The translations under genes were made by a program, and so were the position numbers. From IMG/VR virus record IMGVR_UViG_3300010392_001047, positions 1-21,317 of that record: a stretch of DNA of 21,317 nucleotides, one strand, 5' to 3'. This document shows, one piece after another, positions 1 through 21,317 of the stretch. Each line of letters starts with the position of its first letter. The stretch's first letter is position 1. The DNA is from a virus. A model generated the notes under the pieces. It ran no database searches and was not told the origin of the DNA. It worked only from the letters and a program-made list of their open reading frames with translations.

Positions 1-454
1 ACTTTTAACGATGATGAAAACCGGATGGGATGATGTGACAGATTATTTAGAAAAAATCGATACAAGTACGGATGGAATATTTAAGTCTACTCTCCAAAGA
101 AATAATGAAGGATTTCAAAATGTTAACGAAGAAAGTAAGGAAACCGTACAGAGAAATAATGAAGGTAATGAAACTATGCAGAGAAATAATTTATCTGTAA
201 GTAATTTAAATACTTCAAGTCTTAACATTAGTGAACCAACAACAAGTACCATCGCATCTAATTCTAACCTTACTGTGAGTGGTCAAGTTAATTTAACAGT
301 TGATAATATGCCAACTAGTTCGGTTATGACTAAGGAGGAGTTCGCTAGATACTTAATAAATAATCCAGACGCGATGGCGACAATCAGTTCCCAACTACTT
401 AATACAAATGGAACGTATGGTGGGTCTGTGACTGGTGGAGGTATGAACTCATAA
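1..454 (+). CDS. C-terminal part of a low-complexity phage tail protein (5'-partial, possibly tape measure)
   Basis: The reading frame is open to the left edge of the window (codons start at base 2), so the ATG pair at 11-16 may be internal and the gene may begin upstream. The visible ~147 residues are rich in Asn, Ser, Thr and Gln. They contain a QRNNEG/QRNN motif three times, then a stretch of short beta-like segments (NLTVSGQVNLTVDN), and then a helix with the pattern TKEEFARYLINNPDAM. A short beta segment followed by a terminal helix resembles the C-terminal ends of phage tail tape-measure and tail-tip proteins, but this is recollection of a pattern and not an alignment. It lies 87 bases upstream of a giant virion protein gene and is transcribed in the same direction, which fits a late tail module. 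No catalytic motif, signal peptide or membrane segment is visible. The structural role is inferred from context. Confidence 0.5.
   Translation, partial: LLTMMKTGWDDVTDYLEKIDTSTDGIFKSTLQRNNEGFQNVNEESKETVQRNNEGNETMQRNNLSVSNLNTSSLNISEPTTSTIASNSNLTVSGQVNLTVDNMPTSSVMTKEEFARYLINNPDAMATISSQLLNTNGTYGGSVTGGGMNS
95..190 (+). repeat. Three in-frame copies of a QRNN(EG)-coding repeat
   Basis: The nucleotide motif CARAGAAATAAT recurs at 95-106, 149-160 and 179-190. The first two copies continue identically into GAAGG. The spacings, 54 and 30 bases, are multiples of three, so every copy encodes QRNN in the same frame. This looks like internal duplication within the low-complexity part of the tail protein. 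Confidence 0.7.
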
Positions 455-474
455 TATTAATAGGGGTATCTTTG

Positions 475-482
475 TATAAATC
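475..482 (+). promoter_or_regulatory. Possible late-type promoter motif (TATAAATC)
   Basis: TATAAATC matches the T4 late consensus TATAAATA at seven of eight positions. It lies in the 87-base gap before the giant structural gene at 542. TATCTTTG at 467-474, just upstream, matches the Bacteroidota -7 element TAnnTTTG, but I see no convincing TTG-type -33 element at the right distance. In DNA this AT-rich the evidence is weak. Confidence 0.25.
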
Positions 483-541
483 TATTCTTTTAGTTTACAC
501 AAAATTATGTTACCGTCTATTTATCTAAAAAGAATATATAG

Positions 542-3500
542 ATGTCATTAAGTCCATTATCATTTGATTCTACTGAAAATTTTAGAAAAAAATTATTAGT
601 AAAAAATCTACAACCATACAATAGCGATGGTTTTAGTCCTGCTTCTCAGCCTGGACAGAGTGAAGTGATAATAAACGATATTGGTGTTATTGATTCAGAT
701 GAAGTTGAAGTTATTGGTTCTAATGAAGGAAATTATGCTTACGTTAAAAATCAATATGGTCCCGAAGGAGGATTTGGGGAACCAAAATCTATTGACGATG
801 TTACATTTATAAATTCAGTTACGAGTTTTAGTAATACCTTAAATTTAGATATGGGTCAGGGTATACCCGCATTAGTCGGTAAAAGTCCTTACAATACCTT
901 TATTGCCTCATCATATAACCCGTTCACACTACTAACAAGTCAGAACCCCCAAGGTAGTAACGGGTCACTATCTCAGGATTCCGATTTAGCAAGAATAGCT
1001 GCGGAATCACTTAAGACTGAATTTCAGTATAGAGTTGCCGAAGAAACATATCAACAAACAATAGGTAGGGTAAATGCAATAGACGCGTTATCTGACCCAT
1101 TTGATTTATTAGGTATAGTTACAGGTAATAAATCTGTAATTGAAAGGGATTGGAAAATTTCAGTACCTAAAAGTTTAATTGGTAAAGGTTTAGATTTTAT
1201 TAGTCGAGTGAGTGGAATTTACTCGCCATATTCATGGATACCTGGTGACTATTTTAGTTCCGAACCAAAACAAATGTATTTAAATCAAATCGCCAATAAA
1301 ATAACTGGATTATTTGATAAGAGAGGGGTTTTAAAATTACCTACCGAAAAAACGGGAATGCAAATTTTCTTGGATAATACAGGTGGAGGACAGAGGTCAA
1401 GACTTTTTCATGGTCTTAGACTTAACCGTTATATACCCGATTATAACCGAAATTTTTTAACTGATTTATTTACTAAAGTACCAAAACAAAATTATTATGT
1501 AGGTAGTTCACAACAAGAAATGAGAGATATTGTGGCTCCCGCAGAATCTCTACCATTAGACCAAGATGGTAATAAAACTCAGGTACCTGTTTATGGGTAT
1601 GATGAGATTGCTAAAATATATGAAAACGAAAAGAGGGATAATATATATCAATTTGGATTAAACCAAACCTCAACATATGACGGTTCAGGGTTACAGGGAG
1701 GGTTTACATGGGTATCACCTAAATATAAAGATAGAGCCGGACAAAAAGTTGGTAAAGGGGCTGAGTTTTTTGGTACTATCGACACAGATTGGAACGAACA
1801 AGGTGTTCAAAATACATTCACCGCAACTCAATCAGTAGATGGTGCAGGAAATTATGATTTTACATCAGGGTCGATATTAGATAATACGCAAAAATTAATC
1901 AACGCAGCCGATGAGGTTGTGGGGGTTAGAAAATTACAACACGTTGGAAACGCGATTGACCAAGTATCAAAAGTATTTCATGATGGAACAAGAGAACTAA
2001 CAAAAGGTTCGAGAGTAATCGCTTATAAAGATGTTGGTGGAGATATTGTAGGCCAAGAATATTGTCGCGTATTTACTAAAGATACCCCATATTACTCAAT
2101 GGCTGACCTACAAAAAAGTGAGGGTATAACAACAGCTAATAGACGTTTTACTTACTCAGTGTTAGATAGTACATATAATTTAAACATTGCGCCAATGAGG
2201 GGTAATGAAAGTACAAACATAACAGGGAACGATTTTAGTCCTAAAGGAGAAGGGGTTAAAAAATACATGTTCTCTTTAGAAAACTTGGCTTGGAGAACAT
2301 CAACAAAAAAAGGTTTCACATATCAAGACCTACCTCATTGTGAGAGAGGTCCTAATGGTGGTAGAATTATGTGGTTCCCTCCATATGATATGAAAGTTAG
2401 TGAAACAAATTCAGCTAATTGGAATACAAACGAATTTTTAGGACGACCAGAACCAATATATACTTACAATAATACCACGAGAAATGGTAATTTAAGTTGG
2501 AAAATAGTGGTTGACCACCCATCGATTTTAAATACTATCGTGGATAAAGAATTAGCGAATCAGAGTAACAATAATAAAGTTACAAGTATTGTAGATTCAT
2601 TTTTTGCGGGTTGTAGAAAGTATGATATATATGAATTGGCCTTAAAGTATCCACAATTTACCTACAGTGATATCTATGAAATTATAGTAAATTCTCCTTT
2701 ACCTGAAGAAGTAAAAGAAAATTTTGACATTATAAATACTAACGTACCTGGTGATAATGACCCAGCAACAGAGGAGTATGTTGATAAAATAAAAGAAGAC
2801 ACATACGATTTCTCATATTATTTTGATAATGATGTTCCTGGTAAACAAGATGCTACCGTAACGACTGCCGATGAATCTTACCAAACAACATTAACTAATT
2901 ATATTGCCAAACAGACTGAGTACAATAATGAGGCCACGGCTGAAAATAAAGTAGGGGTTAACGAGTTTTATGAAAAAAACATATTACCAGGACCTAACGG
3001 TGATAAAGGACCATTACAGAGTACTTTAAGATTTTTGAAAGGAGTGGGGGAAGCTTTGAATGCAGGTTCTACAGTTGAAGTTTTATTACAAGGTTCGGCA
3101 TCGTCACCTAATAATGTTAACTATAATAAAGCATTATCGAAAAGAAGAATCGATAGTGTTATACAATATTTATTACCATTAACACCTTTGGGTACAACAA
3201 AAACGTTACAACAATGGAAAGATGATACACCGAGTAAATTTATAATTAAAGAGGTTGCGTCGGGAGAACAGGTAACTATTAATGGTGTCGATTGTACACA
3301 AGAACTACCTTCATCCGATAAAGTATATTCACCACAGGCGATGGGTTGTAGAAGAGTATTTTTTAACAGTGTTGTTGAAACACCATACCAAGAAGAAATA
3401 GAGGTAACTGATGAAGAAAGTACGCCACCTGTAGTTGATACTAAAACACAAACTGCAACACCTGAGAAACCGGTTATGAAACAACCAACAAAAACTGAAA

Positions 3501-5326
3501 AACAAAGACAGGAAGTTGCGAAAATAATAGTCAGAAAGTTGTTAACTGAATGTGATTACTTTGATTTAGTTAAAGAAAGTTCGCCGATGGTTTACAACGG
3601 AATAAAAGAAAAGATAAAGTATTTTCAACCGGCATTTCATTCTACCACACCCGAAGGTTTAAACTCAAGACTTACATTTCTACAACAATGTATTAGACCT
3701 GGTGATACGATTCCTGTTATTGGAGAGGATGGTAGACCAACAGAGTTCAACGCTAAAAATACTTCATTTGGGGCTCCCCCAATATGTATATTAAGAATTG
3801 GGGATTTCTACCACACTAAAATTGCAATTAATCAGATATCAATTAGTTATGAACCATTAGTTCTTGATTTAAATCCTGAAGGAATTGGAGTTCAACCAAT
3901 GTTAGCGGATATTAATATGTCCTTTTTCTTTATAGGTGGTCAAGGATTAAAAGAACCTGTTAATCGATTACAAAATGCCCTTTCATTTAATTATTACGCA
4001 AATACTGAAGTTTACGATGATAGGTCTGTTGTTACGGAAGAACGGGACGAGTTAAATCAAGAGATATGGGAATCCATAGAAAGTAATATAACGTTTGGCT
4101 CGGATAATAGACCAACCAATGAGGACATACCAACTAAAGGAGTTACTATCGGTACAATTAAAAGTGATATTATAACAACTTATCCGTCAACCACAGAAAG
4201 TACGACTAGTGGTCAAACTTCATTTAAAACTATAATGGCGACGGCAGTCAGTGATGTTCAAAATTATGCGACTTCTCTTACTGAATCTCTTAATCAAGTT
4301 GCGACCACTTATTCTATAGATGGTTTAGCGTACTTTACAGACGAAAGAAATTATACTTCAGGTGATACAATAGGGTATTTTACGGATGGGTTTACTGGTA
4401 ATACCAAAGGTACTAATTTATTTGGTAAACCAAAGGAAGATGAGTTACAAGATAAAATAAATAATTTATTTGATGAAATAATTGATGACGTAAATAATGA
4501 TAATTCACCACTACTTAAAAAGATAGAAAATAAGAATTTTACAAATGCCGACATAGATTTATATAAATTTAATATAATTAATTTAATTAACGAAATTAAA
4601 CCAAATTACATATCGGACTATATGAGTGTTATGCCGAAAGTGGTGAATAACCAATTAAGTTTAATTTCTACGATTGATAAGATTAGTTTTGTTATGACTA
4701 ATACTGATGGTTTTGCGGACAAAGCGAGAAACGTACAACAGGAATTAAATGCTGCGGATAATGTTGATAAAACTTCTAAAAACGCAAATAACACTTACGA
4801 GGAGATGGAAAATGATATGGTGACTTTGAGTACTGACCTACAAGAATTTTATGACCAAATATTTGTAGATGACAAAAGATTAGTCGAAAAATCATTTAAG
4901 TCTGACTATTCGTTTTCAATTGAATATCAAGATGAAGGACTATATTACTCTCGTTTTATGAACGCAATGTATCAAAAAATATTAAATGATAAAGAAAATG
5001 TTATACAAAAATTATTAAATGATAGGTTAAGTGGTATTAATAAATGGAATAGATACGTAAATAATATCGTAGATGACTTACAAAAAGACTATGAGAAAGT
5101 TCAAAGAAAAACTGAAAGAGAGTTAGATAGATTTAGTAAACGTAATACAGTTAGAAAGTTTAACGACTATTCACCATTTACTAAAGAAAAAGAAAGAATA
5201 TTTTATTATATGAACGTACCTAAAGCGAACGTAAATTCAGTTAAAGACGGATATTTTAATGAGTTGTATTCTGGATTAAACAAGGGAGGTAAAATCTCTT
5301 ATAACGGAAAAGTAACATTTAATTAA
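542..5326 (+). CDS. Giant baseplate/tail structural protein with embedded OmpA-like domain (1594 aa)
   Basis: This is a very large virion protein lying directly before the gp53-like gene (stop at 5324-5326, next ATG at 5329). Three regions stand out. Residues about 600-665 hold a conserved-looking block (GPNGGRIMWFPPYDMK, then FLGRPEPIYTY, then RNGNLSWKIVVDHPS) that resembles tail-tube-initiator or baseplate proteins of large phages. Residues about 755-945 look like an OmpA-C domain: an opening YDFSYYFDND strand, the core GSAS...N...LSKRR at 851-869, and a closing CRRVFF at 936-941. Residues about 1078-1165 (RIGDFYHTKI, SYEPL, DLNPEGIGVQPM, FFFIGG, LQNALSFNYYANT) form a second baseplate-like block. 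The C-terminal ~250 residues are highly charged and probably helical or coiled coil. No signal peptide is seen. Structural assignment is likely. The gp48/gp54-like comparison is tentative, because those T4 proteins are four to five times shorter. Confidence 0.7.
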   Translation: MSLSPLSFDSTENFRKKLLVKNLQPYNSDGFSPASQPGQSEVIINDIGVIDSDEVEVIGSNEGNYAYVKNQYGPEGGFGEPKSIDDVTFINSVTSFSNTLNLDMGQGIPALVGKSPYNTFIASSYNPFTLLTSQNPQGSNGSLSQDSDLARIAAESLKTEFQYRVAEETYQQTIGRVNAIDALSDPFDLLGIVTGNKSVIERDWKISVPKSLIGKGLDFISRVSGIYSPYSWIPGDYFSSEPKQMYLNQIANKITGLFDKRGVLKLPTEKTGMQIFLDNTGGGQRSRLFHGLRLNRYIPDYNRNFLTDLFTKVPKQNYYVGSSQQEMRDIVAPAESLPLDQDGNKTQVPVYGYDEIAKIYENEKRDNIYQFGLNQTSTYDGSGLQGGFTWVSPKYKDRAGQKVGKGAEFFGTIDTDWNEQGVQNTFTATQSVDGAGNYDFTSGSILDNTQKLINAADEVVGVRKLQHVGNAIDQVSKVFHDGTRELTKGSRVIAYKDVGGDIVGQEYCRVFTKDTPYYSMADLQKSEGITTANRRFTYSVLDSTYNLNIAPMRGNESTNITGNDFSPKGEGVKKYMFSLENLAWRTSTKKGFTYQDLPHCERGPNGGRIMWFPPYDMKVSETNSANWNTNEFLGRPEPIYTYNNTTRNGNLSWKIVVDHPSILNTIVDKELANQSNNNKVTSIVDSFFAGCRKYDIYELALKYPQFTYSDIYEIIVNSPLPEEVKENFDIINTNVPGDNDPATEEYVDKIKEDTYDFSYYFDNDVPGKQDATVTTADESYQTTLTNYIAKQTEYNNEATAENKVGVNEFYEKNILPGPNGDKGPLQSTLRFLKGVGEALNAGSTVEVLLQGSASSPNNVNYNKALSKRRIDSVIQYLLPLTPLGTTKTLQQWKDDTPSKFIIKEVASGEQVTINGVDCTQELPSSDKVYSPQAMGCRRVFFNSVVETPYQEEIEVTDEESTPPVVDTKTQTATPEKPVMKQPTKTEKQRQEVAKIIVRKLLTECDYFDLVKESSPMVYNGIKEKIKYFQPAFHSTTPEGLNSRLTFLQQCIRPGDTIPVIGEDGRPTEFNAKNTSFGAPPICILRIGDFYHTKIAINQISISYEPLVLDLNPEGIGVQPMLADINMSFFFIGGQGLKEPVNRLQNALSFNYYANTEVYDDRSVVTEERDELNQEIWESIESNITFGSDNRPTNEDIPTKGVTIGTIKSDIITTYPSTTESTTSGQTSFKTIMATAVSDVQNYATSLTESLNQVATTYSIDGLAYFTDERNYTSGDTIGYFTDGFTGNTKGTNLFGKPKEDELQDKINNLFDEIIDDVNNDNSPLLKKIENKNFTNADIDLYKFNIINLINEIKPNYISDYMSVMPKVVNNQLSLISTIDKISFVMTNTDGFADKARNVQQELNAADNVDKTSKNANNTYEEMENDMVTLSTDLQEFYDQIFVDDKRLVEKSFKSDYSFSIEYQDEGLYYSRFMNAMYQKILNDKENVIQKLLNDRLSGINKWNRYVNNIVDDLQKDYEKVQRKTERELDRFSKRNTVRKFNDYSPFTKEKERIFYYMNVPKANVNSVKDGYFNELYSGLNKGGKISYNGKVTFN

Positions 5327-5328
5327 TT

Positions 5329-5646
5329 ATGAGATATTGGAATAGATATACTGACTTTTTAGTTAACGGACAACAAACGGTGGTACCATTTGTTAGAATA
5401 CCTTCAAAACCTTCAGATAAGAGATTTATTTTTAGGACTGGTCGTAGTAGGTTAGATAAACTAAGTTATGAATTTTACGAATCTCCATATTTTGGTTGGT
5501 TAATTTTAGCCGCGAACCCACAATACGGGGGGTTAGAATCAAATATTCCAGATAACGCACTTTTGTTCATACCTTTCCCGTTAACTAATTCTTTACAAGA
5601 TTATAAGGCGGCAGTTGAAAATCACTTCTTCTACTATGGCAGATAA
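5329..5646 (+). CDS. 53: Baseplate wedge protein, gp53-like (LysM-like fold)
   Basis: This 105-residue protein has the pattern of the small LysM-like wedge proteins of T4-type baseplates. A positively charged N-terminal region leads to RLDKLSYEFYESPYFGWLIL (residues 41-60), an Asn-Pro turn (N63 P64), and a closing IPDNALLFIPFP near residues 73-84. LysM-like and gp53 proteins share this order: start of the fold, Y-G/S-P-Y-W/F-W helix, N-P turn, then an 'I..G/N..L.IP' strand. The N-terminal MRYWNRYTDFLVNG fits a virion wedge subunit. It begins two bases after the stop of the giant protein gene and overlaps the next gene by 11 bases, so it is probably translated as part of one operon. In T4, gene 53 neighbours gene 5, the hub lysozyme, and here the next gene also looks hub-like. 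That agreement supports the call. Confidence 0.72.
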   Translation: MRYWNRYTDFLVNGQQTVVPFVRIPSKPSDKRFIFRTGRSRLDKLSYEFYESPYFGWLILAANPQYGGLESNIPDNALLFIPFPLTNSLQDYKAAVENHFFYYGR

Positions 5647-8600
5647 AAAATTCTTTGGTAACGATAAAGTTTACGTTGAAACTGATTATGATAATGTTGT
5701 TGTGGTTGACCCTAACAAAGTGGTTAACTCTGATGGTACAGTTGAAGAACGTAATATTAATCAAGAAAATTTAATAACCTACGCTAATTTAGAGGCTAGA
5801 GTAATCCCAAGAACAAAATTGGCTATTGGTTCTAACTATGAGGATAGTGTTAAAAATGTTGGTGTCGCACAATTAAAGGTTAACTTTATGGAAGGTAATC
5901 CCCAAAACCAAAAAGAACCCAACGTTAATTTAGGAGGTAATCTTGCTGATGACCCAAAATATTTTGATTCGACATGGACCGACCAATTTTTACCTGGACA
6001 AAATAATAAAATGGAAAATGACATTTTTAGTTCGGGAAGAGGTGTTGATACTCAATTATTAGGTATTACTCGTATTAATATAAAAATGAATCCAGCATTC
6101 GTACCTACAGTTACTATTGAAATGACCGATGTACAGGGAAGGGTTTTATTTGAAAGAGGGGATAAGTCTCCGTGTTCAATATTTATGAACCTACCTTACC
6201 CAATTTTTATATTAACCGTAAAGGGTCATTATGGTAAGGCTATTAAGTTGGAGTTAATGTTAAAAGATTTTAACGCTCGATTTGACCCATCAGACGGTAG
6301 TTATCAAATCACTACCTCATATGTTGCTCGTTCACACGCATTTTTACAAGATACATTATTAGATTACCTATATACTACACCACATATGTATCCAAAAAGT
6401 TATGAGCTTGAGAATGTTAAGGGAATACCTGCCGGTGGTACTGTTGCAATTGACAAAATAGATACTACCAAAGGAATGGAAAAAATTAAAGAGGTGTACT
6501 CTTTATATAAATCTAAAGGATTGGTTGAAGAAGATTTTCCAGAAATAACTCTAAATCAAATGAGAATGAGATTGGAGTATTTTAATAGGTATGTAATGGA
6601 GGCTTACACAAAAGAAGATATGACGGTATTAACTGAGGTTGTTAATTATGAGACCGCGATTAATGAATATAGAAGAAGTATTTTTCCAGACATTAAAGAT
6701 AATTGGTTTAATCAGTTTGTTGACGCGACTTCAATATACGTTCTAAATGATGTAAATGCGTCGACCCTATACGGGTTAAAGACAGAACTTGATGAACAAG
6801 GGCGTAGAAGAGCTATATCAAAATTAACGGTAGCCATAGATGAAGGAAATAAAAAATTAAATTCTAACTCCACATTTGGTGTTAATGGTAAGTATGAGAT
6901 TGAAGAAAAAGAAATTAAGTCTGGAATACCTAATAATATTCATGCGAGTGATTTAACAGAAGAAATCAAGGACCCAAGTAGGATAGATTATAAGGCAACA
7001 TATATTAAACGTAATGGTAGTGAACCGACAGAAGAAGAATTAAAAGAGTTTGAAGGGAAGATAAAGGCTGCGTTTGAAGTATCTGCGAAAAGTTATAAAG
7101 TAGGTCCTGACGGAGAATTACAAGAAACTGATAACCCTTCAGTACTCATTAAATTTGGTAATGTAATAAAAGATAAAAACTTTCAAAATGGTAGTTTTTT
7201 AGCAAAATTAGCTAAAATTGAGACCACATTTAAAACTAAAAGGGAAAATATAGAAATACAATTATCTGAGGCGTTAGCTAAAAAAGTGATAAGTTCGGAT
7301 GTTGGGTTAGGTTTTAACCCCACCATAAATAATGTTTTGGCGGTAATATGTGCAAATTCTGAGGCGTTCTACAGGTTAATGGATGAAACACATACCCGTG
7401 CGTGGGATGTGAGAACTAATCCAGCTAGATTATCGGCAATTATGCCTGCAGATAAATCATTTGGAGTTGATGCCAAAGTTTCTTTACAGACAGTGAAAGT
7501 AGATGGTAAAGCGGATTCGTTAACTAATACTCAAATAGTGTACCCATGGCCACAGTACTTTATTAAAAAAATTGACGAAAACAAAGATGCTTACTACGAT
7601 TTAACATACCCTGGAAATCCTGAGGTTATTAATTCAATACAAGGGTGGGACTATACTTTATGGCCTGAAATACAATTTACGGAAGAATATATAACCGCGT
7701 CTTTAGAAAAAGATAAACCTAACATCAACATTAATTACGGTAATGAAACTCAAGTTTCAAAATATATTGGAATAAATTCGGTAGAGTTTCCATTTAATAA
7801 TACACCTTATACTAATGAAGAGTTTGTTTCATTTTTTTACGAAATTTATGAAAGAACTTATTTAGGTGCGAATTATAGTAAAGTGGTCAGAAATAATAAT
7901 TTTAGAGAAAATATATATCCTGTGTTAGCGGATTTTGAATCATCTAACATAAAAGAGGGTTTGGACAATGTTCCTGAATTAATGAAGATATTAAAGGAGT
8001 TTCAGTTTAATGCTTCAACATTTAATCAATATTTATTATCAATTTCTAATAATGGACAGGGTAGTTTTTTCGCTAGAAAAGTAAGAGATATATTTACACA
8101 AAACTATATAAAAGGATACGTGGATATTGATTTTGGAATTTATAGTCAAGAAAGTATGAATACAAATTCAGTTGAAGTTATTTCCTCAGTAGATTCAGTA
8201 AAAGATTTAGAAACTTATATTACGGGAACTTCGTCAAACGCTACAACATTAATGGATGTTTATCCATTTAATAATCTTACTTGGTTAAAAGAAAATATTT
8301 CTAAAGGTAAAGACATATCCGAGATTGATAGGGCGAATAGTACGACTAGTGTTATGAACTTTAATGTACTTAAAAAAACTATATCAACGTTTGATGACCA
8401 ATCATCTGATGATATTAGATATAAAAATAATTTCATTACTTATTTTCAATACGAAAAAAATTATCCGTCAAATCCTAATCAGAACACTAGCAATAATAGT
8501 GATAGTACACAATATCAAACAAATGCTCAATCTAAGGACTATTATTTGAATCGTGAAAATAAAGATTTTTATTTGACCGAAAGCCCAATAGATTATGGTA

Positions 8601-11600
8601 CTGATTATAATACCGCAACAAATAATTTAACATCAATACAAACGACTTCGTTATTAAATACACCTTACTTTACCAATGCGTTATTAAAAGGGGTATCGGG
8701 AGAAACCAACGGAGTAATAAATCCGTATGTAGGTTTAGGGTATATTTATCTAAATTCATTACCATTACCTACACTCAGTGAAAAATATTTAACAAGAAAC
8801 ACTAGTGACGCTGGAGTTAATACTACTAAATGGGGTGATAATATTTATGCGGGTCTAAGTAAATTTGCTGCGATACATAAGATACCATATCTTTGGTTAT
8901 TAAAATATGGTTCAATATGGCATAGATATAAAGAAGATAAAGTAGGTAATGGAGATATTCTTGACGGAATATGGAAAGATTTCAACTATGTTAATGCTTA
9001 TGACCCAATTACTAATGATATAAATAAAGTTTATGACGTACAAAACTATACTGGTGGGAGTACTACCTATGTTCCTCAAAAAACTGAAATTGTTCCATTT
9101 ACTATACCTAACATATTAAATCCATCACTTCCGGGGATTCCGGTTAACTTTAACTATCAATTCACTAAAAACGGATTTTATCCTAAAGTGGTAAATGATA
9201 CTTACAAATTCTTTACAGGTAAGTCACCTTTAACGGGGTATACCAATACTGAAATGAATGACTTATTTAATAATGGTAAATTTAAATTAGGTAAATCACA
9301 AAGTAATTTTTTACCAGCGGGGTATGACCAGAATAACGTACTTAATACTTTAAGTTATGACAGTTATTTTCAATATTTTGATATTGAAGGTAATACTAGT
9401 TTTGATTTTAATTTCACAACTTCAGGTGTTAATACTACTTCACCAAAGATGTTAATAATACCATCTTCAGGTTATTTAAAGTTTACACAAGCCCAAAGAG
9501 AGTGTCTAAACTCACAAAACCACTTAACTCAAAATATAGATATCAACAATAAATCTATTCAAAATGGTAATGTTAGGTCATTGTGGGCATCATCTCATTA
9601 TGGGTATTATAATAATGAATGGGTAAGAAAACCTAATACAAGTCAATATATTAAAGTTATTGATACGGGAGATACCCAACAAGATGCGTTTAATATTATT
9701 AATAAAAATAATGATAATCCGTATAAATCTATTGAGGAAATTTTTGCTATCTTCTCTAAAGAGATGTTAGATGAATTTGAGAAACACTTTTTAAACTTTT
9801 GTAAAAAAGATAAGGACTATGAGGATATAGTCTTTAATCCGTCAACACGCAATGATGACAATTATCAAGGCTCGTTTAATATTGAGTACGATTATAATAT
9901 TGAAAAAGTAATGAGCAGTTTACTTATTATTGATAAACCCGAAATGACAGATAATTCAATAAATGATGTTAAAAGTATTTCTGATAGTCAAATGGAGCAA
10001 TTTGTTAATTTAAATAAAGGTGAAATTTTAGAAAAAGATATAATATTAAAAATAGGTAACCCCGGAAGATTTAACAGAAGGGTGTTTGATTCATTTTCAA
10101 AAATTGAGGACATTGTTCCGATAGACCCGATTGATTTTGGCTACTATAGAGAAGGTTCAGTTCCTACGGCAACAAATGCCACGACATTAGCTGGTAGTCA
10201 AGGGGCGTCACCTGAAGTTTGGGATGAGTTATACTTACGTGTTGGTTACTATGATGATTTTGATTTAATGTATAGTGATAATGGTTCATTCATAACCGAT
10301 TTTTTTCCAATCATGGATATTGAGTTTACTAAAGAAAATGTTATAGATTTGTCTCAAATTATTAAAGTTTTCATGACAGAAAAAATGAAAAATAATAATT
10401 TAACAAAAAGTGACTTCCAACAAACTTTTGATTCATTCATGTCTGGTCAAGCGTCTTTTCAAAATGATATGTTAAATCAAATTTTTAAAACTTTAAATAA
10501 AGATTTACCATCGGTTAAATCTAACAATGCTCAAGTAAGGATTTCCAAGTTAGACGATAAAGATGGTGGAATTAAAACTGACTTATGGGAGACATTTAAA
10601 AACTTTAATGACCGTTGGATATCAGGACAAGACGTTAAAAACAAAACATTATTTGAACAATTTTTATTTTTAGATAAAGCGAATAGACCTATTGGAGATA
10701 AAGTTATTATTGACATTAATAAACTAAGGGGGTTTTTAAAAAGTAATTTACCACAAACAAGTGTTTTATCTCTTATAGGTAACATATTAGAAAAAAATAA
10801 TTTTATCTTTATGCCGACACCATCTTATTCTAATTTCTATGGTAGAAATGAAAGAGTTAAAGAAGGGATGCCTGACCCGGCATTCAGTGATATTGCTAAT
10901 AATACGTTTGGTACATTTTTAGAAGTTGATACCCATAGTTCTGAACCTAAATTATTAGCTATATATGTTGGTAAACCATCAGAAAAGTTACACACTTCAC
11001 CTGAAAACGATAATTATTTATATGGTGACGATTCTTTTGATATCGCTCAACCTTCACTATCTGCGGTTAGGGCGTCAGAAGACGGGGTAACTAACTTCTC
11101 TAATAGAAATAAAGTAGTTGCGTTTAATGTAGATTTTGGTAGGCAAAACCAAAGTATGTTTAAATCAATTAATATTGATATGGCCCAAAGAAAAAACATT
11201 GCACCAACATTTAAGATACTTGCGGATATGGGAGCACAAGCCGATGGTCAAAAAGTGGCTCAACAGTCGGTAAGTTTATATAATTTTTATAAAGCAGCTA
11301 GCTATAATTGTAGTGTAACTGCAATGGGTAATGTAATGATTCAACCTACAATGTATTTTAATTTAAGGTATGTTCCTATGTTTTATGGACCATATTTAAT
11401 TACGAGTGTTACTCATGATATTACAACTAGAGATTTTCAAACAACATTTGAAGGTGTACGAATGTCAAAATATTCATTAAAAATGCCAGACGGTCTAATA
11501 TCGAGCGTAAATAGAGAAATCGTACAAAATTACTTATCGGAAGTTAGGAGAATACCGAACCTCGCAGGTTCTACTGCAGATACCGTTACTAGGTCCGCAA

Positions 11601-13296: not shown

Positions 13297-14157
13297 ATGG
13301 CAAATGCATTAGACGCGGTATTAGCTCAGTATGAGCAGAATACCTCAAAATCAAACACAGGAAGACAATCTATCTCTCAAGAAGATAGGTTAAAACGTTA
13401 TTTCACGACTTATTTACCAAAAGGTACAAGTTCGGGACAGAAAAGAGTACGTATACTACCAACACCTGATGGTTCATCACCTTTTAAGGAAGTGTGGTAT
13501 CATGAGGTACAGATTGACGGTAAATGGACTAAACTTTATGACCCAGGTAAAAATGACGGAGAACGTTCACCTCTTACTGAGGTTTACGAAGAATTAATCT
13601 CAACAGGTAAAGAATCTGATAAAGATTTAGCTAGACAATATCGTCCACGTAAATTTTACATTGTAAAACTTATTGATAGAGACAATGAGGACCACGGACC
13701 TAAATTTTGGAGATTTAAAGATAACTACAAACAAGAAGGTATCTTAGATAAAATTATTCCGATTTGGAAAGCGAAAGGTGATGTGACCGACGCTAACGAG
13801 GGACGTGATTTAATGGTTGAACTATCAAAGGCTAAAACACCTAAAGGTATTGAGTATACGGTTGTACAGACAGTTATGTATGATGACCCGTGTGCTATTC
13901 ATACGGATGAGTCTCAAATGAAAGAATGGATGACTAACGAGTTAACATGGCAAGATGTTTACGCACAGAAACCCGTAGAGTATTTAGAGGCGATTGCAAG
14001 AGGTGAGACACCTGTTTGGAGTTCCGACTTAAAGAAGTACGTTTATGGTGACGATTCTTCTGAAGTGGTATTAGGTGGTTCGAATGAATCAACTAAAACT
14101 GAGGTGACAACTGACCCACAATCAAAAATGGGTGTGGATACAGACTTACCATTTTAA
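13297..14157 (+). CDS. 32: gp32-like single-stranded DNA-binding protein
   Basis: This protein probably coats single-stranded DNA during replication and recombination. It is 286 residues, close to T4 gp32 at ~300. It has a basic N-terminus with an S/Q-rich linker, then RVRILPTPDGSSPF (50-63) and YHEVQIDGKW (68-77). These correspond to the gp32 core, where T4 has a similar RFLPS...PF...NH...NGKW order. FYIVKLIDRD (120-129) and KFWRF (136-140) continue the OB-fold. H69 matches a zinc ligand of T4 gp32, but the other three ligands (cysteines in T4) are absent; the only cysteine is C199. The C-terminal ~35 residues are acidic or polar and end in DTDLPF, like bacterial SSB tips (DDDIPF or DDLPF) and unlike the T4 tail. 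The leader GAGAAAAAAGAAAAATT has no clear Shine-Dalgarno sequence. It is followed by a hairpin and then the recombinase gene, the usual gp32-UvsX partnership. Confidence 0.85.
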   Translation: MANALDAVLAQYEQNTSKSNTGRQSISQEDRLKRYFTTYLPKGTSSGQKRVRILPTPDGSSPFKEVWYHEVQIDGKWTKLYDPGKNDGERSPLTEVYEELISTGKESDKDLARQYRPRKFYIVKLIDRDNEDHGPKFWRFKDNYKQEGILDKIIPIWKAKGDVTDANEGRDLMVELSKAKTPKGIEYTVVQTVMYDDPCAIHTDESQMKEWMTNELTWQDVYAQKPVEYLEAIARGETPVWSSDLKKYVYGDDSSEVVLGGSNESTKTEVTTDPQSKMGVDTDLPF

Positions 14158-14173
14158 TAACAACTAACATGAT

Positions 14174-14203: not shown

Positions 14204-14221
14204 TTTATCAATTTAAAAAAT

Positions 14222-15226
14222 ATGGCAATAAAGAAAAAAGATTTTAGTAGTATAAAAAAGAAATTTTCTACATCCGCAAAATATAAACCACAAAGGTTTT
14301 TTGATTTGGGTGAGGATTTCTTAGATGCTGTTGGATTACCTGGACCAGCAATAGGTCATTTAAATATGTTTTTAGGACATTCAGATACGGGTAAAACAAC
14401 TGCGTTAGTAAAAGCAGCAGTAGACGCTCAGAAAAAAAATATATTACCTGTATTCATTATTACGGAACAAAAATGGTCTTTTGAGCACGCAAAACTTATG
14501 GGTTTCGAGTGTGATGAAGTAGTTGATGAAGAAACAGGTGAATTAGATTGGGACGGGTTCTTCATTTTTAATAATAATTTTAATTATATAGAACAAATAA
14601 CTGACTTCATTAATGAGTTATTGGACGCTCAGTCTAAAGGTGAATTAGATTATGACTTGCTGTTCTTATGGGACTCAGTGGGTTCAGTACCATGTAAAAT
14701 GACTTTTGACGGTAAAGGTGGTAAAATGCATAACGCATCTACATTAGCGGATAAAATAGGTATGGGTATCAACCAAAGAATTTCGGGCTCACGTAGAGCG
14801 GATTCTAAGTATGAAAATACTTTATTAATTGTTAACCAACCTTGGGTACAACTTCCTGATAACCCATTTGGGCAACCTAAGATAAAGAGTAAAGGAGGTG
14901 AGGCGATTTGGTTAAATTCTTCTTTAGTTTTCTTATTTGGTAATCAAAAAGATGCTGGTACCACCACTATAGCGGCAGTTAAGAACAAAAGAAAAGTAAA
15001 GTTTGCGTCCAGAACAAAAATATCGGTAATGAAAAATCATATCAATGGATTAGGATACGCGGATGGAAAAATAATTGTAACTCCTCACGGATTCATAGCA
15101 GGTAAAGAGAGTACTGAGGAAAAAAAATCAATTGAAAAATACAAAAGTGAGCAATCTGAGTATTGGAAAAAGGTCATCGGAGTTGAAGGTGATTTTAAGT
15201 TAGAAGAAGAAAAAAAAGAACAGTAA
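14222..15226 (+). CDS. uvsX: UvsX/RecA-like recombinase
   Basis: This is a strand-exchange ATPase of the RecA superfamily, 334 residues (T4 UvsX is ~390). Walker A is GHSDTGKTT (52-60). The glutamate that activates water is probably E82 in ITEQKW. Walker B is LLFLWDS (146-152), with D151. The NQPW segment (205-208) matches the RecA NQ motif, and KSKGGEAIWLNSSLVFLF (222-239) matches the RecA 'GG.A..F.....L' segment after loop L2. A Lys-rich N-terminus precedes the core and a charged helical tail ends the protein. The start ATG at 14222 follows an A-rich leader without a Shine-Dalgarno sequence. It lies just after the gp32-like gene and before the 5' nuclease, a classic T4-type arrangement of recombination-dependent replication genes. 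RadA or DnaB-like ATPases are less likely because of the NQ motif and neighbours. Confidence 0.9.
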   Translation: MAIKKKDFSSIKKKFSTSAKYKPQRFFDLGEDFLDAVGLPGPAIGHLNMFLGHSDTGKTTALVKAAVDAQKKNILPVFIITEQKWSFEHAKLMGFECDEVVDEETGELDWDGFFIFNNNFNYIEQITDFINELLDAQSKGELDYDLLFLWDSVGSVPCKMTFDGKGGKMHNASTLADKIGMGINQRISGSRRADSKYENTLLIVNQPWVQLPDNPFGQPKIKSKGGEAIWLNSSLVFLFGNQKDAGTTTIAAVKNKRKVKFASRTKISVMKNHINGLGYADGKIIVTPHGFIAGKESTEEKKSIEKYKSEQSEYWKKVIGVEGDFKLEEEKKEQ

Positions 15227-15244
15227 CAATTTAACACAAATAAA

Positions 15245-16261
15245 GTGGTTAAAACATTATTAATTGACGGAAATAATTTATTTAAAATAGGTTTTCATGG
15301 AGTAAGAGATTTCTACCATGACGGAAAACATATTGGAGGTTTATATCATTTCGTTAACACAATCAAAAAGTTTCTTAATGAACACAATCATGATAAAGTC
15401 ATTGTGTTTTGGGATGGGGAAAATAACTCATCCCAAAGAAAACTTATTTCACCAGAATATAAGGGAAATCGTAAACAGTCATTAAACGAGGCTAAAAAGG
15501 AATCGTTCGAGTGGCAGGTACAACAAGTTAAATCATATCTTGAAGAAATGTTTATCAGACAAGTTTCTGTTAAAAACACTGAGAGTGATGATTTAATCGC
15601 ATATTATTGTCAAATATCTGAAGACGAATATAAGACTATCTATTCTTCAGATAAGGACCTTACACAACTTATCTCCGATAAAGTGGAAGTGTACCAACCG
15701 ATGAAGAAGATAACCCTTAGAAATGGAGATTTAGTCCCTTTAAAGGATATCTCAATCCCACATCAGAACATATCAACTTTTAAAATCATATCAGGTGATA
15801 AATCAGATAATATTGATGGTATCAGATATATGGGTGAAAAAACATTTGTGAAGTTATTTCCCGAAATAGTTGATAGTGTCGTAACTATTGATGATATTTT
15901 AAAACATGCAGAGGAACTACATAAAACTGATAAAGACAATCGAGCACTACAAAATTTACTCTCAGGAAAAACAAAAAGAGGGATTTATGGTGAAGAATTT
16001 TTTATAATCAATAAAAAACTCGTAGATTTGTCTCAACCTTTATTAACCGAGGACTCAAAAGTGATTATTGAACAGTACCATACAGAAAATTTGGACCCTG
16101 ATGGTAGAGGATATAAAAACCTAATGAGAATGATGATGAGTGATGGGATTTTTAAGTATCTACCAAAACATGATAATGCGTGGGTTGAATTTTTAACCCC
16201 TTTTATGAAATTAACAAGAAAAGAAAAAAGAAGATTTAAAACTAAAAAACGTTTAATATGA
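15245..16261 (+). CDS. rnh: FEN-family 5'-3' nuclease (T4 RNase H-like)
   Basis: This is a 338-residue flap/5' nuclease that would remove RNA primers and flaps during lagging-strand synthesis. All metal-binding motifs of the FEN/PIN family are seen: LLIDGNNL with D8; VIVFWDGEN with D57; YKGNR (72-76); the ESDDLIAYY cluster with E113, D115 and D116; YSSDKDLTQL with D136 and D138; and the H3TH-like GDKSDNIDGIRYMGEKT (184-200) with D185 and D188. Length is close to T4 RNase H (~305) and unlike the Pol I-linked enzyme, since no polymerase domain follows. The start is GTG at 15245 (MVKTLLIDGNN), because no ATG is available before the motif. Its stop overlaps the next ATG in an ATGA junction, indicating translational coupling. 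An RNase H1-type enzyme is excluded by the motif set. Confidence 0.88.
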   Translation: MVKTLLIDGNNLFKIGFHGVRDFYHDGKHIGGLYHFVNTIKKFLNEHNHDKVIVFWDGENNSSQRKLISPEYKGNRKQSLNEAKKESFEWQVQQVKSYLEEMFIRQVSVKNTESDDLIAYYCQISEDEYKTIYSSDKDLTQLISDKVEVYQPMKKITLRNGDLVPLKDISIPHQNISTFKIISGDKSDNIDGIRYMGEKTFVKLFPEIVDSVVTIDDILKHAEELHKTDKDNRALQNLLSGKTKRGIYGEEFFIINKKLVDLSQPLLTEDSKVIIEQYHTENLDPDGRGYKNLMRMMMSDGIFKYLPKHDNAWVEFLTPFMKLTRKEKRRFKTKKRLI

Positions 16262-16722: not shown

Positions 16723-16752
16723 TTTACAAACACAGATTAAAACTCAAGAAAT

Positions 16753-18132
16753 ATGTCAAAAGAAAAGAATTTTGGTTACCTCGGTAATACATTTCAATTA
16801 CAAATACTTAACAATATTATCCTTTATAAGGATTTCGCAAGTTCTATTGTAGATGTGTTGGAACCTAAGTACTTTGACAATCAATATTTTAGGTTAATCA
16901 TGCAGATGACCAAGGAGTATTATCACAAATATGAACACGCTCCTTCATTCTCAACACTTGAACAAATCACTAAGTCTGAGGTAACATCACCTATGGCCCA
17001 AAAAATGGTCTTAGATATGATAACTCAGGTGGTTGATGCCCCTGATGATGGGTATCAATATGTTCAAGAAAAGGCGTTAAAGTTCTGTAAACAACAAGAA
17101 TTACAGAAGGTAATGACTAAAGCACAAAAGATTATCGATAAAGGTGATTTTGAATCTTATGACCATTTAGAAGAAATGGTAAGAGAAGCTTTACAAGTTG
17201 GAGAAGTTGATACGGGAACTGCGGACGTTTTTTTTAATTTAGATGAGGTTTTGGATGATGATTTTAGACATCCAATTCCTATCGGTATAACAGGTATTGA
17301 TAACCTACTAAAAGGTGGGTTGGCTAAGGGCGAAATTGGAGTCATTTTAGCTCCGACAGGTGTGGGTAAAACTACAGTACTCAGTAAAATTGCTAATAAC
17401 GCATTTAACTTAGGTTATAATGTTTTACAGATATTTTTTGAAGACAACCCTAAGATTATACAAAGAAAACATTTCACTATGTGGACAAAAATTGCACCAG
17501 ATAATTTGTCATTACAGAGAGAAGAGGTTTTAGAAAGGGTTAGACAAATTAAAGAAAATGCACCTAACAGACTTATACTAAAAAAGTTACCTTCAGATAC
17601 GTTAACGATGAATCAGATAAAGAATCAAATGCGTAAAATGATTGCTGAAGGGATTAAAATAGATTTAGTCGTAGTTGATTATATTGATTGTATCGTTCCA
17701 GATAAGAATTTAGGGGACGAATGGAAAAGTGAAGGTTCGGTTATGAGAGGATTTGAATCAATGTGTCATGAATTAGATATTGCGGGTTGGACGGCAACTC
17801 AAGGGAATCGTTCTTCAATATCTTCTGAAGTTGTAACCACGGACCAAATGGGTGGGTCAATCAAAAAAGCCCAAGTAGGTCACGTTATTATTTCTGTTGC
17901 TAAATCCCTACAACAGAAAGAAATGAATTTAGCGACAATAGCCATTACCAAGTCAAGAATTGGTAAAGATGGTATTGTATTTGAAAATTGCAAATTCGAT
18001 AACGAAATGATAGAAATTGATACGGATAGTAGTGTAACCTTCTTAGGTATGGAAGAACAAAAAGAAGAAAAAAACAAAGTACGTATTCAAGAACTACTAC
18101 AAAAGAGAAAACAAAGGGAAAGTAAAATATAA
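16753..18132 (+). CDS. 41: Replicative DNA helicase, gp41/DnaB-like
   Basis: This is a hexameric 5'-3' helicase with the DnaB/gp41 layout, 459 residues (T4 gp41 is ~475). The N-terminal helical domain (residues 1-~150) contains YLGNTFQLQILNNIILYKDFA and PKYFDNQYFRLI, typical of the family. A linker leads to the RecA-like core that starts at PIPIGITGIDNLLKGGL (174-190). Walker A is APTGVGKTT (200-208). FFEDNP (228-233) holds the catalytic glutamate, and Walker B is LVVVDYID (305-312). ATQGNR (348-353) fits motif H3, and AITKSRIGKDG (397-407) contains the likely arginine finger. The last ~35 residues are Lys/Glu-rich. The ATG at 16753 follows an A-rich leader. It lies after the 154-residue gene and before nrdB, in line with T4-type replisomes. 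No primase domain is fused, so a separate primase must lie outside the window. Confidence 0.9.
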   Translation: MSKEKNFGYLGNTFQLQILNNIILYKDFASSIVDVLEPKYFDNQYFRLIMQMTKEYYHKYEHAPSFSTLEQITKSEVTSPMAQKMVLDMITQVVDAPDDGYQYVQEKALKFCKQQELQKVMTKAQKIIDKGDFESYDHLEEMVREALQVGEVDTGTADVFFNLDEVLDDDFRHPIPIGITGIDNLLKGGLAKGEIGVILAPTGVGKTTVLSKIANNAFNLGYNVLQIFFEDNPKIIQRKHFTMWTKIAPDNLSLQREEVLERVRQIKENAPNRLILKKLPSDTLTMNQIKNQMRKMIAEGIKIDLVVVDYIDCIVPDKNLGDEWKSEGSVMRGFESMCHELDIAGWTATQGNRSSISSEVVTTDQMGGSIKKAQVGHVIISVAKSLQQKEMNLATIAITKSRIGKDGIVFENCKFDNEMIEIDTDSSVTFLGMEEQKEEKNKVRIQELLQKRKQRESKI

Positions 18133-18136
18133 AATT

Positions 18137-18151
18137 TTTTAAAAACAATAA
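18137..18151 (+). repeat. 15-base leader repeat, copy 1 (before nrdB)
   Basis: TTTTAAAAACAATAA here recurs exactly at 19430-19444 in front of nrdA. Both copies lie within 15 bases of the start codon and replace a Shine-Dalgarno sequence with an A-rich leader. Confidence 0.6.
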
Positions 18152-18154
18152 TAT

Positions 18155-19435
18155 ATGGACAATCTAATTGATAGTGTCAGTAAAGACATTCGTTATGTAA
18201 TAAAGAGAAGTGGAGATAAGGTAGTTTTTAAATCTGAAAAGATTGAAATGGCTATTTTAAACGCGATGAAAAGTATAGATAAAGTAGACGAGAGTATGGC
18301 TGAAAAAATTGCTAGACTCACAACTAAAAGCCTTTTCAGGGGTAATAAAGAAAGAGTTCCTAATGTGGATGAGATTCATGATATGGTAGAGAATAAATTG
18401 ATGGATAACGGGTTAAATGATGTGGCAAAGGAATACATTATTTATCGCTCTAAAAATCGACCTAACATTTTTTCAAAAAGAACTAATCTTAAACCTTACG
18501 AGTACCCAAACTTAAATGAATATGTGGACGCAATTAGACACTCCTATTGGGTACACACAGAATTTAACTATACGTCTGATATCCAAGACTATAAAGTACA
18601 TTTAAATGAAAAAGAAAAATCGGCAGTTGAAAGAGCAATGTTAGCGATTTCACAAATTGAAGTGGCGGTTAAATCATTTTGGGGTGACATTTATAAAAGA
18701 ATGCCGAAACCTGAAATTGGTAATGTAGGGGCTACGTTTGCTGAATCGGAAGTGAGACATGCGGACGCTTACTCACACCTAATTCAATTACTAGGTCTTA
18801 ATGGGGAATTTGAAAATTTGTTAGAGGTTCCACAAGTGAGAAGAAGAATTAAATACTTAGAAAAGGCTATCTCAAACTCTAAATCAGTCGATGATAAAGA
18901 ATACTTTGAGTCTATAGTGTTATTCTCAATGTTTGTTGAAAACGTATCACTATTTTCACAATTTTTAGTTATTATGTCATTTAATAAACATAAAAATAAA
19001 TTAAAAGGTATTAGTAACGCAGTTGAGGCAACATCTAAAGAAGAGAATATCCATGCGGAATTTGGGTTTGAATTAGTTAATTTAATCAAAAAAGAAAACC
19101 CTGATTGGTGGACACCACAATTAGTTGAAGATTTAGTTATCGCAACTAAAGAGGCTTATGAAGCGGAGACTGAAGTAGTTAATTGGATTTTCGAAAAAGG
19201 TGATTTAGAATTTTTAACTAAAAAACAAACAATGGAGTTCATTAAACATAGATTTAACGTATCTTTGAATTCTATAGGTGTTGATAGTATTTTTGAAATT
19301 AATCAAACACTATTGGAAACCACAGAATGGTTTGATGATGAAATTCTAACTACAAAACATACTGACTTTTTTAATAAAAGAAGTATTAATTACAGTAAAA
19401 AGCAGAAATCGATAACATCTAACGATTTATTTTAA
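18155..19435 (+). CDS. nrdB: Class I ribonucleotide reductase small subunit with N-terminal ATP-cone
   Basis: This is the radical-generating subunit that works with NrdA to make dNTPs. It is 426 residues, about 50 to 100 more than a usual NrdB/NrdF. The extra part, residues ~12-107, is an ATP-cone: YVIKRSGDKVVFKSEKIEMAI, then VPNVDEIHDMVENKLM, then VAKEYIIYRSKN. The ferritin-like core follows. Its metal ligands are visible as E169 (Asp in E. coli), E199 and H202 in ESEVRH, E262, and E297 with H300 in EENIH. Y206 occupies the radical tyrosine position (E-x2-H-x3-Y). The C-terminus ITSNDLF would be the tail that binds NrdA. ATP-cone NrdB proteins have been described from Bacteroidota such as Leeuwenhoekiella. 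Which metal pair it uses cannot be read from sequence alone. It is followed 21 bases later by nrdA, so the two are co-transcribed. Confidence 0.9.
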   Translation: MDNLIDSVSKDIRYVIKRSGDKVVFKSEKIEMAILNAMKSIDKVDESMAEKIARLTTKSLFRGNKERVPNVDEIHDMVENKLMDNGLNDVAKEYIIYRSKNRPNIFSKRTNLKPYEYPNLNEYVDAIRHSYWVHTEFNYTSDIQDYKVHLNEKEKSAVERAMLAISQIEVAVKSFWGDIYKRMPKPEIGNVGATFAESEVRHADAYSHLIQLLGLNGEFENLLEVPQVRRRIKYLEKAISNSKSVDDKEYFESIVLFSMFVENVSLFSQFLVIMSFNKHKNKLKGISNAVEATSKEENIHAEFGFELVNLIKKENPDWWTPQLVEDLVIATKEAYEAETEVVNWIFEKGDLEFLTKKQTMEFIKHRFNVSLNSIGVDSIFEINQTLLETTEWFDDEILTTKHTDFFNKRSINYSKKQKSITSNDLF

Positions 19436-19444
19436 AAACAATAA
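19430..19444 (+). repeat. 15-base leader repeat, copy 2 (before nrdA)
   Basis: This exact copy of TTTTAAAAACAATAA at 18137-18151 overlaps the nrdB stop codon and lies 12 bases before the nrdA ATG. Confidence 0.6.
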
Positions 19445-19456
19445 CAAAATAATAAT

Positions 19457-21163
19457 ATGAAAAATAGAAAACCATTTAATTGGATTAATGAAGAATCAGT
19501 TACGTTTCTTCGTAGAGGTTATTTGAGTGAGGGTGAGGAACCTTTAGATAGAATAAAAACAATTGCGGAACATGCAGAAAAACTATTAGGTAAAGAAGGG
19601 TTCGCCGATAAATTTTACGACTATATGAGTAAAGGGTGGTATTCACTATCATCACCAGTATGGGCAAATTTTGGTAAAGAAAGAGGGTTACCTGTTAGTT
19701 GTTTTGGTTCTAATGTCAGTGATAGTATAGAGTCAATTCTATTTACTCAGGCTGAGGTTGGTGAGATGAGTAAAATGGGTGGAGGTACTTCAGGGTATTT
19801 CGGTAACATTCGTGGTCGTGGAGCTAAGATAACTGATAACGGACATGCTCCAGGAGCGGTCCACTTTATGAATCTTTTTCAAAGTGTCGTAGATAATATT
19901 TCACAAGGGGCGACACGTAGAGGTAGATTCTCACCTTACTTACCTGTTGAACATCCAGACATTATGGAGTTTTTAGAGATTGGTACAGAAGGTGCTTCAA
20001 TCCAAGATTTGACACACGCAGTGACGGTAACCGATAAGTTCATGCAAGAGATGATTGCCGGTGATGATGATAAAAGAAAAGTATGGGCAAAAGTAATCCA
20101 AAGAAGAGGTGAAATAGGTTATCCATATATCATGTTCCATGACACGATGAATAATAACGCACCTAAAGTTTACCAAGATAAAGGGGCTAAAATTTATAAT
20201 TCCAATCTTTGTTCTGAAATAGCTCTACACAATTCTGAAGACGAATCATTTGTTTGTGTATTATCTTCAATGAATGTATTACACTATGATGAGTGGAAAG
20301 ACACCGATGCTGTTGAAACTATGGTTTATTTCTTAGATGCGGTAGTCACTGAGTATTGTAATAAATTAGAAGAATTAAGAGACAATGGTACCAGAGAAGG
20401 TAAAATGGCGTTTCTTTATATGGAAAAGGCTTATAACTTTGCTAAGAGACAAAGGGCACTTGGTTTAGGTGTTTTAGGTTGGCACTCACTTTTACAATCA
20501 AAAGGGTTGGCTTTTGATACAAGAGAAACTGCTAAACTTAACGTTGAGGTATTTAAAACTATTAAAGATAAATCGTATAAGGCATCAGAGGAGTTAGCTG
20601 AAATATTTGGGGAACCTGAATATCTAAAAGGTTATGGTAGACGAAACGTAACACTTAATGCAGTTGCTCCGACTACTTCATCGGCGTTTATTCTTGGTCA
20701 GGTATCACAATCTATTGAACCTATTTGGTCTAACTGTTATGTTAAGGATGTTGCTAAAATGAAGGTAACTATAAAAAATCCAGTGTTAAAAGAATTGTTA
20801 GAGTCTATGGGTCGAGATAACAAAGAGACTTGGGATAGTATAAAAAAGGGAGATGGTTCGGTACAACATTTAGATTTTTTAAGTGACGAACAAAAAGATG
20901 TTTTTAGAACATTTGCAGAAATTAATCAGTCATCAATTATTAATCAAGCGGCAATAAGACAGGATTATATAGACCAATCACAGTCATTAAATCTAATGGT
21001 TTCACCTGAAATGCCGACTAAAGATGTAAATAAGTTACTTATTGACTCATGGAAGTTAGGGGTAAAAACACTATATTATCAACATTCAATGAACTCAGCA
21101 CAAGCATTTGCTAGAAAAAAATTAAATTTAAATGATTTACAATGTGTTGCATGTGAAGGTTAA
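19457..21163 (+). CDS. nrdA: Class I ribonucleotide reductase large subunit lacking an ATP-cone
   Basis: This is the catalytic subunit, which reduces ribonucleotides with a radical from NrdB. It is 568 residues, compared with ~760 for E. coli NrdA, and starts directly in the core with no N-terminal cone. Active-site motifs are present: C82 in VSCFGSN (redox Cys), NLCSEIAL with N250, C252 and E254 (substrate site and thiyl radical Cys), C267 in FVCVLSS (second redox Cys), PTTSSA (405-410), and the tyrosine pair Y540 and Y541 in LYYQHS (radical pathway). The tail ends QCVACEG, with C563 and C566 as the likely thioredoxin-facing pair. GGGTSGYFGNIRGRGA (108-123) is a typical core loop. It follows nrdB after 21 bases with the same A-rich leader and is followed by a strong terminator. 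Overall activity control is presumably supplied by the cone on NrdB. Confidence 0.93.
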   Translation: MKNRKPFNWINEESVTFLRRGYLSEGEEPLDRIKTIAEHAEKLLGKEGFADKFYDYMSKGWYSLSSPVWANFGKERGLPVSCFGSNVSDSIESILFTQAEVGEMSKMGGGTSGYFGNIRGRGAKITDNGHAPGAVHFMNLFQSVVDNISQGATRRGRFSPYLPVEHPDIMEFLEIGTEGASIQDLTHAVTVTDKFMQEMIAGDDDKRKVWAKVIQRRGEIGYPYIMFHDTMNNNAPKVYQDKGAKIYNSNLCSEIALHNSEDESFVCVLSSMNVLHYDEWKDTDAVETMVYFLDAVVTEYCNKLEELRDNGTREGKMAFLYMEKAYNFAKRQRALGLGVLGWHSLLQSKGLAFDTRETAKLNVEVFKTIKDKSYKASEELAEIFGEPEYLKGYGRRNVTLNAVAPTTSSAFILGQVSQSIEPIWSNCYVKDVAKMKVTIKNPVLKELLESMGRDNKETWDSIKKGDGSVQHLDFLSDEQKDVFRTFAEINQSSIINQAAIRQDYIDQSQSLNLMVSPEMPTKDVNKLLIDSWKLGVKTLYYQHSMNSAQAFARKKLNLNDLQCVACEG

Positions 21164-21188
21164 GGGATAAAATATAGGGATATTGTAT

Positions 21189-21220
21189 AAAAAGGTTGGA
21201 TTCGTCTAACCTTTTTTCTT
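21189..21220 (+). terminator. Strong intrinsic terminator after nrdA with a UUCG loop
   Basis: AAAAAGGTTGGA (21189-21200) and TCTAACCTTTTT (21205-21216) pair, including one G-U, around a TTCG tetraloop, followed by TCTTTT. It ends the replication/nucleotide block 26 bases after the nrdA stop codon and separates it from the next structural gene. Confidence 0.85.
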
Positions 21221-21247
21221 TTATATTTAGATAAAATAATCTGTGTT

Positions 21248-21255
21248 TATATTTA
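21248..21255 (+). promoter_or_regulatory. Weak late-promoter-like motif before the gp25-like gene
   Basis: TATATTTA matches the TATAAATA octamer at six of eight positions. It lies six bases before the start codon, almost the same spacing as the exact octamer before the 74-residue gene. In such AT-rich DNA this is suggestive only. Confidence 0.2.
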
Positions 21256-21261
21256 TGAAAT

Positions 21262-21317
21262 ATGGCAGACGGTAAAACATACGGAGTATTTTTTCCTTTT
21301 AGAGATAGTTTACAAGG
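21262..21317 (+). CDS. 25: Start of a gp25-like baseplate wedge protein (3'-partial)
   Basis: Only 18 codons are visible before the window ends, reading MADGKTYGVFFPFRDSLQ. The pattern G-x-x-FPF-R-D-S near the N-terminus is typical of gp25/GPW-type baseplate wedge proteins, in which the conserved core begins with 'FPF..S..G.'. The gene begins 42 bases after a terminator and would mark the return to structural genes. The assignment rests on a very short segment, so an unrelated structural protein remains possible. Confidence 0.5.
   Translation, partial: MADGKTYGVFFPFRDSLQ

Follow-up and report, generated by a model that had tools for sequence, protein, structure and literature searches.

The genome of Staphylococcus phage K contains no GATC, and Sau3A is the common restriction system of its host (PMC6532042). 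In a 2018 survey, double-stranded DNA phages were found to commonly avoid orthodox Type II sites, and GATC was under-represented in each of the 46 phages that face a matching restriction endonuclease encoded by their host (PMC6286503). GATC is also wholly absent from phiX174, as it is from the DNA described here, although phiX174 is a small single-stranded DNA phage of Escherichia, in which a link with mismatch repair has been proposed (PMC5014478). The nearest cultured relative of this DNA, judged by its UvsX recombinase, is the Flavobacterium phage vB_FspM_immuto (Immutovirus), and the immuto phages (45% identity) are the only cultured phages matching that protein. Both share the gene order ssb, recombinase, exonuclease, helicase, nrdB and nrdA, whereas GATC is near normal in immuto, with 74 of 89 expected sites in 24 kb, and in 80 uncultured relatives of immuto (3255/3834).

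The window, namely the whole stretch of DNA that was analysed (21,317 bases) and an entire IMG/VR record (G000), is a fragment of a T4-like phage, in which genes for replication and ribonucleotide reductase lie downstream of two very long ORFs:

1..21317, no strand, GATC-free stretch (59 expected), the whole window
542..5326, plus strand, 1594-aa ORF with no assigned function, conserved in relatives (cluster 16), GATC-free coding DNA
5615..12253, plus strand, 2212-aa ORF with no assigned function, conserved in relatives (cluster 11)
13297..14157, plus strand, gp32-like single-strand DNA-binding protein (PF08804, phrog_1192/224)
14222..15226, plus strand, UvsX-like recombinase (phrog_97; tree), which served to find and order relatives
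15245..16261, plus strand, 5'-3' exonuclease (PF02739, phrog_107)
16753..18132, plus strand, DnaB-like replicative helicase (phrog_19, PF03796)
18155..19435, plus strand, ribonucleotide reductase small subunit with N-terminal ATP-cone (PF00268, PF03477), nearest isolates Flavobacteriales
19457..21163, plus strand, ribonucleotide reductase large subunit (phrog_84)

The 2212-aa ORF (5615..12253) has no match among cultured phages. Residues 831-878 of the 1594-aa ORF (window:542-5326) give a weak, below-cut-off match to an OmpA-type domain.

The first-pass annotation had claimed that GATC is missing throughout the window where at least 50 sites would be expected, and both claims hold: a programmatic count gives 0 in 21,317 bases, while 58.6 are expected under a second-order Markov model and 61.4 from base frequencies. 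When all 256 4-mers are counted, as it had proposed, GATC alone has zero occurrences. The palindromes that it cited as present lie at their positions (CCGG at 21, GGCC at 2051, GCGC at 2189 and CTAG at 4206), and GCGC (1 observed, 12 expected) and CTAG (22/44) are depleted yet still present. A codon-preserving control, which it had named as a possible refutation, leaves the absence standing: with synonymous codons permuted within each gene 1000 times, so that protein and codon usage are kept, the coding part of the window holds 48.6 ± 4.9 GATC (range 33–62), against none observed. With composition and codons both controlled, GATC in the window thus lies below the one-tenth of expectation used to define site elimination. 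It is clear that synonymous codon choice in the window avoids GATC, as the Asp codon before C is GAC in 32/32 cases (elsewhere 103/457), the Ile codon after G is ATC in 0/59 (other contexts 61/418), and Ser after.GA is AGY in 6/6.

Uncultured relatives of the window, found through its UvsX, are abundant, with 84–98% identity over 80 contigs in a first scan and many more in later scans. GATC is zero in 69 of these 80 relatives, in 22 of 25 further relatives from a second scan, and in 35 of 89 new loci obtained by two queries with GATC-bearing members, a few of which re-sample contigs from the earlier counts. Comparison beyond the window had been suggested at the outset, and relatives of up to 172 kb also turn out to lack the site; the longest GATC-free record comprises 171,629 bases, for which 538 sites are expected. 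Across 19 records including the window, 1,372,205 bases contain 0 GATC against about 3,783 expected, and their non-coding DNA contains 0 against about 97. In the ORFs of these 19 records, Asp before C is encoded by GAC in 2243/2243 cases, Ile after G by ATC in 0/3463, and Ser after.GA by TCN in 0/516. Sister lineages that bear GATC have 19% to approximately 100% of expectation, and one record holds a single GATC (1/91); the intermediate states amount to 1%, 19%, 22%, 25%, 41% and 54%. In those of the longer partly depleted records that were inspected, GATC is evenly spread. These intermediate states suggest lineages recently freed from, or now coming under, selection.

Every one of these records is a metagenome contig, which could be taken to favor chance, composition or a library artefact as the source of the pattern. 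However, GATC-free and GATC-bearing relatives come from the same metagenomes, at 0/60 and 50/62 in 3300044846 and at 0/38 and 64/75 in 3300044641, and therefore a library artefact does not account for it; together with the 33–62 sites held by the shuffles, this makes such an origin scarcely credible. A mutational rather than selective origin, in which host cytosine methylation of GATC is followed by deamination to GATT/AATC, is very improbable. A cytosine-methylating GATC methyltransferase is prevalent in Flavobacterium psychrophilum (PMC11837570), and GATT is somewhat commoner in GATC-free than in GATC-bearing records, as such a process would produce. It misfits the data, however, because the neighbors that need other changes, namely GAAC/GTTC, GACC/GGTC and GAGC/GCTC, rise along with GATT. 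Moreover, the invariable GAC for Asp before C is a change not made by deamination of the C, nor would mutation pressure bring the count in 1.37 Mb down to exactly zero.

A UvsX tree with 198 rows shows GATC eliminated in 125 of them, for which about 11 state changes suffice, whereas elimination of CATG in 14 rows takes 13; these counts are approximate because a single protein underlies the tree and support is weak for many branches (as seen in a smaller set), and alone they cannot separate gain from loss. Few changes for GATC and many for CATG indicate that the GATC state has been inherited and long kept, and that CATG loss is recent and repeated. GATC was lost deep in the group and stayed lost, while CCGG, CATG, TCGA, ACGT and GCGC come and go.

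A trait so deep and strict is what an inherited cause would give, and GATC restriction endonucleases are rare in the sampled Bacteroidia; both points would fit a GATC nuclease encoded by the phage itself, used for breaking down host DNA or keeping out rivals, with the phage protected by lacking the site. In the phage records, however, which are fragments, neither DpnII-family (0/29) nor MutH/Sau3AI-family (0/19) nuclease genes were found, and no gene cluster proved exclusive to the GATC-free records when synteny was checked. Cluster 54 was considered as a gene specific to GATC-free records and rejected, as it is missing at the same locus in four of them. In this cluster (e.g. G004:25208-25756), a zinc-ribbon-like module, CDxCGWSW...CHKCG, is attached to differing bodies of small phage proteins, some of which lack the module. 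As the loss of other palindromes in single lineages also lies beyond one phage enzyme, a phage nuclease is regarded as quite unlikely. Only slightly more room is left for a combined account, still unlikely, in which GATC loss is driven by an inherited phage property, either a GATC nuclease that has gone unrecognized or a strict need for DNA free of the site, the shifting second palindromes reflect separate host encounters, and the GATC-bearing sisters have lost the property or gained protection.

In 32 records, all 4-mers below 0.25 of expectation are palindromes, namely GATC, CCGG, CATG, TCGA, ACGT, GCGC and CGCG, and their combinations vary by lineage. A loss confined to palindromes is the trace that orthodox Type II restriction leaves. 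The missing words are thus orthodox Type II recognition sites, accompanied by a few longer words, including an asymmetric one. That 5-mer, ACAGC/GCTGT, is absent on both strands from G321 (0/38), G004 (0/26) and G317 (0/18) and nearly so from G007 (1/17), the records of L315, L015, L342 and L029, respectively, as if a non-palindromic restriction site were avoided. G013 (record of L044, 326 kb) has 0 TTTAAA against 192 expected and 0/15 GACGTC, with GATC evenly spread at 25% of expectation. TATATA is absent from G050 (0/32), G044 (0/30) and G048 (0/19), the records of L158, L143 and L156, and TATA is common in the lineage. In G313 (record of L317), ACGT is almost gone, at 7 against 198 expected.

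Instead of ordinary Type II enzymes, the agent selecting at GATC could be DpnI-like restriction that depends on methylation, or mismatch repair of the MutH kind. Mismatch repair has been invoked for the lack of GATC in phiX174 (PMC5014478), and GATC methylases without a restriction endonuclease are known in Flavobacterium (PMC11837570). Yet neither MutH nor DpnI systems involve the second missing sites CCGG, CATG, TCGA and ACGT, and those MutH-family genes of Bacteroidia that were read encode restriction endonucleases of the Sau3AI family, which renders this possibility decidedly improbable.

As to methylases, the first-pass annotation had suggested looking for a Dam-like phage enzyme; the window has no D12 (Dam-like) methylase gene, but such genes do occur in three large relatives. 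Dam-family D12 methylases are encoded by G013 (GATC at 25% of expectation), G313 (78%) and G051 (0), at the orthologous loci G313:153263-154102, G013:271136-271975 and G051:116068-116916, and each of these records also has an N6/N4 methylase. The Dam-family gene adjoins a DnaJ-like ORF in G013 and G051, and the nearest phage matches of these genes, at 56–58%, are in uncultured phages with genomes of 634–735 kb. A Dam-like methylase as the reason for GATC-bearing relatives was rejected: it is found in G013 and G313, yet GATC-free G051 owns one too, and therefore methylase ownership does not decide the GATC state. The association expected of phage self-methylation, a Dam-like methylase with GATC tolerated, was accordingly not found. 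Methylases of any class, with C5 matches obtained by single-query phmmer only, are present in 5/10 GATC-bearing and 1/10 GATC-free records of at least 60 kb, all of them fragments, a difference that is not significant (Fisher p 0.14). Three neighboring ORFs at G314:54113-56735 match C5 methylase, as does a fourth at 8151-10232. DNA modification of the QueC type was likewise set aside, since the QueC-like gene of immuto has no match in the window's lineage. No phage methylase pattern cleanly accounts for the GATC-bearing sisters.

The probable host was approached through translation signals and gene affinities. Shine-Dalgarno motifs precede 0–5% of lineage genes against a background of 4–8%, i.e. 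without enrichment. Absence of a Shine-Dalgarno signal is a trait of Bacteroidota; immuto and a Polaribacter fragment likewise lack the signal, in contrast to fragments of Paenibacillus and Pasteurella, with only 7–9 starts in each bacterial fragment. The nearest isolates by ATP-cone NrdB are Polaribacter and Crocinitomix (58–61%), a signal that is weak because the search also matched Patescibacteria and gammaproteobacterial bins. A UvsX scan of prokaryote genomes for host identification found nothing. Together, the missing Shine-Dalgarno signal, the NrdB affinity and the closeness of UvsX to that of the Flavobacterium immuto phages make Bacteroidota the likely hosts.

Searching likely hosts for GATC restriction, another suggestion of the first-pass annotation, did yield Sau3AI-type and DpnII-type operons, in a few percent of the Bacteroidia sampled. 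MutH/Sau3AI-family genes occur in 7/248 Flavobacteriales and 16/395 Bacteroidia species, and DpnII-family genes in 2/248 and 9/395, respectively, some of these matches being weak. Three MutH/Sau3AI-family genes that were read are Sau3AI-family restriction endonucleases by a curated model (562.8, 453.7 and 538.3 bits; cut-off 300), and for one the match to the solved Sau3AI scores 8e-78. Two of the three directly adjoin a C5-type methylase ORF, one such ORF being confirmed as dcm superfamily, and the Crocinitomix gene has no adjoining methylase within the short stretch fetched. Two strong DpnII-type matches adjoin an ORF whose motifs mark it as a putative D12 methylase. In addition, CCGG and CGCG systems have been described alongside the GATC methyltransferase in F. 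psychrophilum (PMC11837570), and Prevotella intermedia is reported to have a GATC system that is active (PMC5608340). The low frequency of GATC restriction endonucleases, for two families in the sampled species, is the main weakness of the host-restriction account; such enzymes may be commoner in the true hosts, or other enzyme families may be acting.

Taken together, it is highly probable that a T4-like phage lineage, probably growing on aquatic Bacteroidota, shed GATC to evade Type II restriction in its hosts, of the Sau3AI type and/or the DpnII/MboI type. The first-pass annotation had read the loss as strong selection, most simply by GATC restriction in the host range, and this remains the best-supported reading, given the palindromes-only losses, the operons in Bacteroidia, and the failure to find a DpnII- or MutH/Sau3AI-family nuclease gene in the phage records scanned. 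Two of its parts we infer, namely the assignment of the hosts to Bacteroidota and the role of restriction in them as the selecting agent. A GATC newly arisen by mutation would leave the genome, unmethylated on entry, open to cutting in enzyme-carrying hosts, and mutants bearing it would be purged for that reason, with much of the constraint taken up by synonymous codon choice.

This kind of phage defense is already known, as in phage K; what is unusual here is how complete and how old it is, and that its course can be followed on a tree. Phage K is a large virulent phage from which GATC has likewise been eliminated genome-wide, and Sau3AI-family operons exist in the plausible hosts of the window's lineage, but phage K belongs to an unrelated phage group with a different probable host phylum, and for the window's lineage host and enzyme are only those that we infer. 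Unlike in phage K, the trait is traced over a divergent lineage with sisters in every intermediate state, and it is this completeness, along with the graded sister states, that is notable. The result is a readable record of restriction pressure for a widespread uncultured phage group, and the set of missing palindromes could predict hosts by matching to restriction repertoires. The 2018 survey paired phages with known hosts (PMC6286503); it and the present comparison both reveal non-random loss of orthodox Type II palindromes, which in the present lineage is absolute for GATC over 1.37 Mb of related records.
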